DNA of 42,718 nt. Origin: a virus. The DNA is taken from positions 1-42,718 of IMG/VR virus record IMGVR_UViG_3300046656_000396. The stretch is one strand, 5' to 3'. The notes beneath the pieces were generated by a model, which saw only the letters and a program-made list of their open reading frames with translations, was not told the origin of the DNA and made no database searches. Positions within the stretch are counted from its first letter, which is position 1. Every line of letters starts with the position of its first letter. Position numbers and translations under genes: made by a program. Of this stretch, positions 20,718-22,988 are shown piece after piece.

Positions 20718-20778
20718 GACGCTCGCATGGTGCGTGGTGCTCACAGCGTTGTGTGCTGCGATTGGAGCGATGACATGA
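20707..20778 (+). CDS. 23-aa membrane micro-peptide
   Basis: ATG at 20707 lies in the end of the previous gene and the TGA overlaps the methyltransferase ATG (ATGA). The product is almost entirely one hydrophobic helix (LAWCVVLTALCAAIGAM). Tight coupling on both sides suggests translation. It could equally serve only to couple translation. Function unknown. Confidence 0.45.
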   Translation: MTAETLAWCVVLTALCAAIGAMT

Positions 20779-21389
20779 CCTGGCTGCCGGGCATGGAAGC
20801 AGAGCAGCGCAAGGTTGAGCTGTCGCAGTGGTACACCGACAGCAAGACCGCGACGCGCATTTGCGAGATGGCCTTCGACGTGAACGACAGCGCAAGCATC
20901 AAGAGCATCCTCGAGCCGTCATGCGGCCGTGGGGCGCTCATCGATGAAGCGCTCATCTTTGCGCCGAACGCAGCCAAGTTCGTGGGTGTGGACATCGACG
21001 CAGAAAACATCGCTTTCTGCCGAGAACGATACGACCATCAAGTCAGTTTGCATCAAGGCGACTTCCTCGAGTGCGTATTTGCTCGTGACGACTTCGACGT
21101 GGCGCTCATGAATCCGCCTTTCGAGAGTGGACAAACCGAGCGACACATACTCCACGCCCTGAAGTGGGCGCACCGCGTGGTGTGTCACTGCCCGCTGACC
21201 ACTCTGGCAGGACAGGAACGCCGTGAAGGACTGTGGAAGCTGGTAGACCTGCGCACGCTGGCAATCTGCAGCACGCGCCCTAAGTACGGCGAGAAAGCCG
21301 GCATGACGGACATGTGCACGATCGACGTGACGCTGCGTCCGGGATGGGCGACGTGTTGCGAACGCACGAAAATAGTGTGGTGGCCGTAG
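20775..21389 (+). CDS. DNA N6-adenine methyltransferase, 204 aa
   Basis: ATG at 20775 has GGAG seven bases upstream. SAM-binding motif I is LEPSCGRGALI (residues 46-56), the next acidic strand is VGVDID (about 70-75), and the catalytic motif IV is NPPF at 113-116, the form used by exocyclic adenine methyltransferases. No target-recognition domain of normal size is present, and no restriction enzyme lies nearby, so it is probably an orphan enzyme that protects phage DNA or marks it. Substrate site unknown. Confidence 0.8.
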   Translation: MTWLPGMEAEQRKVELSQWYTDSKTATRICEMAFDVNDSASIKSILEPSCGRGALIDEALIFAPNAAKFVGVDIDAENIAFCRERYDHQVSLHQGDFLECVFARDDFDVALMNPPFESGQTERHILHALKWAHRVVCHCPLTTLAGQERREGLWKLVDLRTLAICSTRPKYGEKAGMTDMCTIDVTLRPGWATCCERTKIVWWP

Positions 21390-22622: not shown

Positions 22623-22692
22623 CGCTCTCCGACCAAAGCGCCTGCGAGCGTCAGCGTAGGAGGGTAGGGCGTCTATACAAGGCGCCCTACCC
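22619..22692. terminator. Two tandem GC-rich hairpins ending the early operon
   Basis: Hairpin 1: CTGACGCTC (22619-22627) pairs with GAGCGTCAG (22646-22654). Hairpin 2: GGGTAGGGCG (22662-22671) pairs with CGCCCTACCC (22683-22692), 10 perfect bp around an 11-base loop. The first starts at the stop codon of the winged-helix gene. No T-tract follows either stem, so factor-dependent termination or processing is as likely as intrinsic termination. Confidence 0.55.
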
Positions 22693-22800: not shown

Positions 22801-22811
22801 ACGCGACTCAT

Positions 22812-22884
22812 TGGCCACTGGCTCAACTGGTAGAGCACCGGATTCCAAATCCGGAGGTTGCAGGTTCGAGACCTGCGTGGTCAG
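22812..22884 (+). tRNA. tRNA-Trp (anticodon CCA)
   Basis: Full cloverleaf. The acceptor TGGCCAC pairs with GTGGTCA (one G-U), the D-arm is GCTC/GAGC with a GG-containing loop, and the anticodon stem CCGGA/TCCGG has loop TTCCAAA, so the anticodon is CCA. The T-arm is GCAGG/CCTGC with loop TTCGAGA. The discriminator is G, as in bacterial tRNA-Trp. CCA is not encoded at the 3' end. The coordinates end at the discriminator base. Confidence 0.9.
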
Positions 22885-22886
22885 CC

Positions 22887-22970
22887 CAGGGTGTAGCTCA
22901 CGTGGGAGAGCGCGGGTTGGCCATCTAAAAAGATGCCCGAGAGCTGGGTTCGACTCCCAGCCCCTGACCA
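22887..22970 (+). tRNA. Atypical tRNA-like gene with expanded anticodon loop (possible pseudo-tRNA)
   Basis: Two bases after tRNA-Trp. D-arm GCTC-ACGTGGGA-GAGC and T-arm CTGGG-TTCGACT-CCCAG are normal, and the 3' end is encoded as ACCA. The anticodon stem can be CGGGT/GCCCG, leaving a 17-base loop instead of 7. Within it CATCT-AAAA-AGATG can form a further stem. The acceptor stem is weak (CAGGG/CCCTG only). Length 84. It does not read as any canonical isoacceptor. Either a decayed tRNA or a decoy/modified one. Confidence 0.6.
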
Positions 22971-22988
22971 ACGAACCGGGACATCACC

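Follow-up and report, generated by a model that had tools for sequence, protein, structure and literature searches.

The question raised by this locus is what a tRNA-shaped gene with no readable anticodon may be doing in a phage genome. The window, that is the whole stretch of DNA analyzed, is a virus record of 42,718 bases from a tailed phage encoding a portal, a scaffold, a major head protein and an SU10-like adaptor, the portal and adaptor being of the P22/SU10-like type. Just downstream of its canonical tRNA-Trp gene lies a second, tRNA-like element (Table 1), for which the original prediction had offered three readings: a decaying tRNA, a tRNA with a small insertion, or a decoy for host defences that cut tRNAs in the anticodon loop.

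Table 1. Positions in the window of the tRNA-like element, its parts and the neighbouring features
Feature	Position	Strand	Basis
tRNA-like element, whole	22887..22970	+	full-length match to Rfam tRNA model (27.7 bits)
5' acceptor strand CAGGGTG, T22892 (U6) bulged	22887..22893	+	alignment to tRNA model: single gap in 3' strand
D arm GCTC-ACGTGGGA-GAGC (preceded by TA)	22896..22911	+	sequence, tRNA-model alignment
Replaced anticodon domain	22913..22939	+	sequence, fold of arm
Outer stem CGGG/CCCG of anticodon domain	22913-22916 / 22936-22939	+	
5-nt bulge TTGGC in anticodon domain	22917-22921	+	
Hairpin CATCT-AAAA-AGATG in anticodon domain	22922-22935	+	
17-nt anticodon loop in five-pair reading	22918-22934	+	tRNA-model alignment
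T arm CTGGG-TTCGACT-CCCAG	22944..22960	+	sequence, tRNA-model alignment
3' acceptor strand CCCCTG, discriminator A (A73) and encoded CCA	22961..22970 (A+CCA at 22967-22970)	+	
Canonical tRNA-Trp with anticodon CCA and G73; CCA end not encoded in this register	22812..22884	+	Rfam 64.3 bits, ARAGORN
2-nt spacer CC	22885..22886	+	sequence
Strong 10-bp hairpin GGGTAGGGCG/CGCCCTACCC, no T run, upstream of the tRNA genes	22662..22692	+	sequence, alignment with L002
Downstream ORF, 111 aa	22989..23324	+	same place in L002, 38% identity

Alignment of the Rfam tRNA model (RF00005) to positions 22880–22985 alone yields a match over 22887–22967 (E = 2.3e-4) that confirms the 17-base anticodon loop claimed for the element, at a score 1.3 bits below the gathering score of 29, so that the cut-off is not reached. 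At gathering thresholds Rfam calls only the tRNA-Trp, and ARAGORN with default settings likewise calls only this gene, in a shifted register (22811–22888) that overlaps the element. The D arm, the T arm and the ACCA end can be read directly and are intact, as had been stated, whereas the acceptor stem, previously described as having about five pairs, has six (C1-G72, A2-U71, G3-C70, G4-C69, G5-C68 and G7-C66) with U6 bulged out. Two equally good readings exist for the anticodon arm: five pairs CGGGT/GCCCG, the last of them U-G, closing the 17-nt loop, or four pairs CGGG/CCCG followed by the TTGGC bulge and the five-pair hairpin CATCT/AGATG with its AAAA loop. The second is the minimum-energy fold of the isolated arm, of which the hairpin proposed from inspection is thus a part. 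Position 33 is a G; U33 is absent and there is no readable anticodon, and G33 together with a 17-base loop precludes its reading as an elongator tRNA. It possesses the D arm, the T arm with TTCRA and the CCA of a canonical elongator, and lacks the seven-pair acceptor and the 7-base loop with U33 and anticodon; a conserved tRNA body, lost U33 and anticodon, and a replaced arm are instead the traits of a non-decoding tRNA-like RNA. Folded freely, the element adopts a minimum-energy structure other than the cloverleaf, and its folding energy is in the usual range (z -1.23, matched by 26 of 200 shuffles). The joint pattern of widely spaced D and T arms has a single match in the window against none in 100 shuffles, and a relaxed tRNA-body scanner found 0 matches in 1.19 Mb of shuffled sequence (one shuffled copy per strand). 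We conclude that the stretch 22887–22970 is real and tRNA-derived.

The two bases said to separate this element from the tRNA-Trp are indeed found when the latter is taken to end at G73. The two genes are likely co-transcribed, by analogy, since they share a strand and their 2-nt spacer resembles those of the T4 dimeric pre-tRNAs, which are shorter than 5 nt (accessible text of PMC11143913). No terminator-like site was called at the hairpin upstream of the tRNA genes. Searches for relatives, using as queries the terminase-region ORF, the portal, the capsid and two further ORFs, returned a few short or distant records and one close one, L002 (42,104 bases, IMG/VR), which is 69% identical for the query ORF, 76% for the portal and 91% for the capsid. 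At the same locus L002 carries a canonical tRNA-Asn, placed between an equivalent strong hairpin without T run (L002:5278-5313) and the homologue of the 111-aa ORF, and no odd tRNA-like element; the tRNA content of the locus has therefore been exchanged between the relatives. The arm pattern of the element, with loop and closing bases left free, has 0 matches in IMG/VR, no relative was found via the flanking ORF, tblastn searches of phage records with two proteins yielded 0 and 1 distant match, and 24 kb of window DNA has no near match among phages. Elsewhere in the window (20727–21389), a 220-aa ORF is similar to a portion of the DNA methyltransferases of phages (phrog_799, E 2e-13).

If the element itself has no recognizable homologue, its kind does recur, in many phages that are unrelated to one another. 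IMG/VR was scanned with a class I D arm followed 31–48 bases later by a T loop (scan 1, at least 120 stretches; 112 distinct sequences among the matches listed after de-duplication and addition of the window), and with a different D arm (scan 2; 83 distinct sequences among the matches listed). Acceptor pairing was absent from the search criteria of both scans, and among the matches listed the acceptor shows 7/7 pairs in 91 of 112 and 6/7 in 13 of 112 sequences for scan 1, and 7/7 in 69 of 83 and 6/7 in 10 of 83 for scan 2. A normal 7-base loop with a long variable arm is present in 17 of the 112 listed sequences of scan 1; of the 95 that remain, 27, among them the window, combine a 5/5 anticodon stem with an enlarged loop and a variable region of 4–5 bases, against a mean of 1.7 and a maximum of 7 in 1000 shuffles. 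No such stem excess appears among the listed matches of scan 2 (3/83, shuffle mean 0.97, maximum 5), which indicates that the arms frequently differ from a mere enlargement of the loop and that the stem result of scan 1 is not general. Removing the window, the class II-like rows and all rows below six acceptor pairs leaves 85 listed scan 1 sequences, in which position 33 is U in 14, A in 28, C in 27 and G in 16, and of which 15 encode CCA; U33 is found in 13 of the 83 listed sequences of scan 2. As a control, the scan 1 pattern was applied to GTDB genomes, where it returned at least 116 stretches; those listed are mostly archaeal loci whose loops resemble intron-bearing anticodon loops, and with this same pattern U33 occurs, among the matches listed, in 40 of 47 archaeal but only 15 of 91 viral cases. 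An insertion would be expected to spare U33 and portions of the loop, as archaeal introns do, and the small insertion initially envisaged is thus a poor fit both to the window, with its G33, and to the listed viral sequences (U33 in 14/85). Judged by its sequence, the window element belongs to a kind of phage RNA that recurs, and is not a simple insertion; across these RNAs the tRNA body is kept, most strictly in its acceptor/T-arm half, and decoding is lost.

The surroundings of these elements were analyzed on locus pieces with a median of 8–10 kb rather than on whole genomes; L067, which sits at the holin/endolysin genes of Streptomyces phages, was left out. Among the matches listed, our own scanner detected no canonical tRNA at 59 of 78 element loci of scan 1 and 82 of 116 of scan 2, and two or more elements, up to six per locus, are present in 54 of the 116 scan 2 loci. 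A lactobacillus-type prophage, for example, carries a tandem of three non-canonical, tRNA-like elements whose arms are rich in pyrimidines (L275:8713-9129); such arms, e.g. CTCCTTT and CCCTTCTCTCTC, are found in the arrays of Lactobacillus prophages, and an unannotated element of this type is present in Lactobacillus phage Sha1. No common neighbour gene emerged when 67 and 63 neighbouring ORFs were compared with PHROGs (at most two members per family); many of the ORFs are on the wrong strand in GC-rich DNA, and their orientation was accordingly left out of account. Nor does alanine identity provide a common charge: G3:U70 is found in only 9 of 85 sequences among the matches listed, and Kauala has G-C. 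Nine features of the arms were counted in an exploratory manner among the matches listed; palindromes of at least 8 bases occur in 22 of 112 arms (shuffle mean 12.4, maximum 21 of 300) and the motif GTAAC in 11 of 112 (2.8 in shuffles). The arm of L333:9124-9183 contains two CCTCCTTT-like (anti-Shine-Dalgarno-like) stretches, and in L180, L187 and L349 the anticodon regions look like duplicated loops of the tRNA-Asn type (CTGTTAA repeated), unlike the other non-canonical arms. The 17 distinct class II-like sequences with normal loop and long variable arm among the matches listed (L016:5655-5728, L018:12868-12941, L040:1273-1346 and others) have a TAGCTCA D arm, a TTATAC-type anticodon loop and, in our reading, the anticodon UAU; they are present in phages and in several bacteria (GTDB loci L134, L150, L155 and L179).

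One of the scan matches, L109, turned out to be phiC31 itself. Here the element occupies the interval between genes 13 and 14, as it does in the relatives phiBT1, Vash, Lilbooboo and others; it is unannotated in phiC31 and most relatives and called 'tRNA-Gly' in Lilbooboo, while early phiC31 papers are said to mention a tRNA-like feature. Direct counting on the segments of ten sequences (nine phages and L066) reveals changes on both sides of acceptor pairs 2-71 (CG/TA), 3-70 (TA/CG) and 6-67 (GC/CG/AT) and of T pair 51-63 (CG/GC). In our reading of the arms, the outer stem is CCGC/GCGG, CCAC/GTGG or CCCC/GGGG, while GAAA, GCAA, GTAA or TTCG caps the inner hairpin; phiBT1 has a short 9-base loop instead. 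The acceptor, T and arm stems of these elements are under compensatory evolution. At the same place, Shawty and TG1 retain only the acceptor, the T arm and a 19-base hairpin region, a minihelix obtained in 0 of 2000 (Shawty) and 1 of 2000 (TG1) shuffles of those stretches. The elements of the phiC31 (Lomovskayavirus) group and of the window share the tRNA body and the position between co-directional genes; in both, the anticodon arm has given way to an outer stem and an internal loop leading to a hairpin whose loop has four bases, and neither has an anticodon that could be used. On the other hand, the phiC31-group element stands alone, with a perfect seven-pair acceptor and no encoded CCA, whereas that of the window is in tandem with tRNA-Trp, encodes CCA and has an acceptor bulge, and there is no homology beyond the tRNA body.

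A further group is found in the Microbacterium phages of Kojivirus and Schubertvirus, 5' of the DNA polymerase I gene. As in the window, a tRNA body carries an enlarged, non-canonical anticodon domain, but the arms are different (a 15-nt anticodon loop in Koji, a stem and hairpin in Schubert) and the elements are annotated as decoding tRNAs, tRNA-Pro or tRNA-Phe. Between Pherbot and Koji, acceptor pairs 1-72 and 6-67 are changed on both sides. Between PrincePhergus and Pherbot the flanks are 97.1% and 97.3% identical and the element only 64.4%, a disparity that identifies cassette exchange.

These comparisons bear directly on the reading that the element is a second tRNA behind tRNA-Trp, deprived of its anticodon by an insertion or a rearrangement and now drifting. 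Such a history, which we consider unlikely but to be taken seriously, would suit the six-pair bulged acceptor, the ordinary folding energy, a copy seen in one genome only (no homologue by arm pattern in IMG/VR or by flanking ORF) and a locus whose tRNA content turns over, as the tRNA-Asn of L002 illustrates; yet the D and T arms, the CCA and both halves of the arm hairpin are intact, and a single insertion would not be expected to abolish U33 and at the same time put a paired hairpin in place of the arm. The same kind, moreover, recurs with full acceptors among the matches listed (91/112 and 69/83) and with compensatory changes in the phiC31-type phages. Since the listed acceptors are paired although pairing was no search criterion, and changes in the phiC31-type phages compensate each other, the viral tRNA-like kind as a whole, read from these alignments, is not a product of decay; the decaying tRNA originally suggested keeps some probability for the window copy, with its bulge and its want of a homologue, and is contradicted for the kind.

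We regard as more improbable that the tRNA body serves as a processing signal ('tRNA punctuation') guiding the cuts of RNase P and 3'-nuclease in a polycistronic transcript, the anticodon arm being free to vary. A canonical tRNA-Trp two bases upstream already supplies such a site in the window, and a pure cutting signal would not need the structured and covarying arm of the phiC31 relatives, even if the retained part is precisely the acceptor/T-arm half recognized by RNase P (accessible text of PMC11143913), to the extreme in Shawty and TG1, and the elements of the window, the phiC31 relatives and Kojivirus are placed between co-directional genes. Moreover, the strong upstream hairpin expected for protection of the cut mRNA shows only a weak enrichment (n = 86), with p = 0.011 relative to random positions and 0.18 relative to the downstream side. 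Quite improbable, in our view, is a tRNA-scaffolded antisense RNA whose replaced arm pairs with phage or host RNA: the diversity of the arms, their exchange as cassettes and the pyrimidine-rich arms of Lactobacillus prophages would agree with it, but the arm of the window is mostly paired, exposing TTGGC and AAAA only, and SD-like or anti-SD-like motifs in the 112 non-redundant arms among the matches listed are not clearly above shuffles (p 0.05 to 0.61). A tiny intron, whose splicing would restore the anticodon, is scarcely credible, because U33 is not at its proper place in the element, against 40 of the 47 listed archaeal matches, which do look intron-bearing with similar total loop lengths, and because the record is that of a tailed phage, with no evidence here for an archaeal virus.

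The explanation we prefer, and hold with about even confidence as a whole, is that the window encodes a non-decoding tRNA-like RNA, processed from a dimer, that acts as a tRNA mimic occupying a host factor. The element keeps the acceptor/T-arm stack, the D arm and the CCA end, with a hairpin in place of the anticodon arm, and therefore cannot read codons. A dimeric precursor with tRNA-Trp would be cut by RNase P and the host tRNA 3'-end machinery into a stable tRNA-shaped RNA, which might then occupy a tRNA-binding host factor, serving as decoy or sponge towards some tRNA-acting defence or another enzyme. We infer that the window copy is functional and processed in this way; the decoy role calls for the most reserve and, granted a functional window copy, is plausible but tentative. 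We place it first among the possible roles because cassette exchange, the diversity of the arms and the existence of arrays fit a conflict with host factors. The element lacks the very anticodon that anticodon nucleases cut.

Mimicry of tRNA without decoding is familiar from tmRNA, viral tRNA-like structures, mascRNA and YrlA. As candidates for the element, Tymo_tRNA-like (Rfam, 14.2 of 40 bits) and mascRNA (13 of 42.5) score below threshold; YrlA/Y RNA-like (RF02553) reaches 19.7 of 69 bits in a match spanning the tRNA-Trp T arm and the element D arm; and for tmRNA ARAGORN makes no call, the D stem of the element being 4/4 and not reduced. According to the accessible text of PMC11143913, RNase P requires only the acceptor/T-arm domain and also processes the phage M3 and C4 RNAs. 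The C4 antisense RNA and M3 RNA, like the window element, are phage-encoded and non-decoding; the window element is distinguished from them by its complete D arm and T loop, and no Rfam match to such a family was found in the window. Defence-evading phage tRNAs are, as in the window, phage tRNA genes with changes near the anticodon loop, but they decode and the window element cannot (accessible texts of PMC10264068 and PMC11555353). In the accessible text of PMC11555353, phage-tRNA counter-defence operates via the supply of a decoding tRNA, and that by the SP15 phage tRNA-Tyr required the anticodon and the stem-loops. Given this requirement, a decoy action of the element would constitute a different mechanism.

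Within the literature searched, no paper was found that describes this non-decoding phage tRNA-like class. It is not mentioned in the accessible portions of PMC10264068, PMC7609411, PMC6856279, PMC11536984 and PMC13015707, of which that of PMC7609411 does not mention phages, that of PMC10264068 contains nothing on insertions, decoys or pseudogenes, and that of PMC6856279 counts such elements as tRNA genes with anticodon AAA. Annotation misses or misnames such elements, as tRNA-Gly in Lilbooboo, as tRNA-Pro or tRNA-Phe in Kojivirus, and as nothing at all in phiC31. Phage tRNAs are usually counted by their anticodons and explained by codon supply or by replacement of cleaved host tRNAs. Recurring phage tRNA bodies without an anticodon fit neither explanation. 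We advance, as a speculative and rather doubtful generalization, the existence of an undescribed, fast-exchanging class of anticodon-less tRNA mimics, encoded by phages of many hosts and used against host proteins that recognize the tRNA body, with the window element and the RNA of phiC31 genes 13-14 among its members. Such mimics may occur alone, beside true tRNAs or in arrays, and their targets may be tRNA-acting defences or tRNA-handling enzymes; elements of this kind can be tested directly in well-studied laboratory phages such as phiC31.
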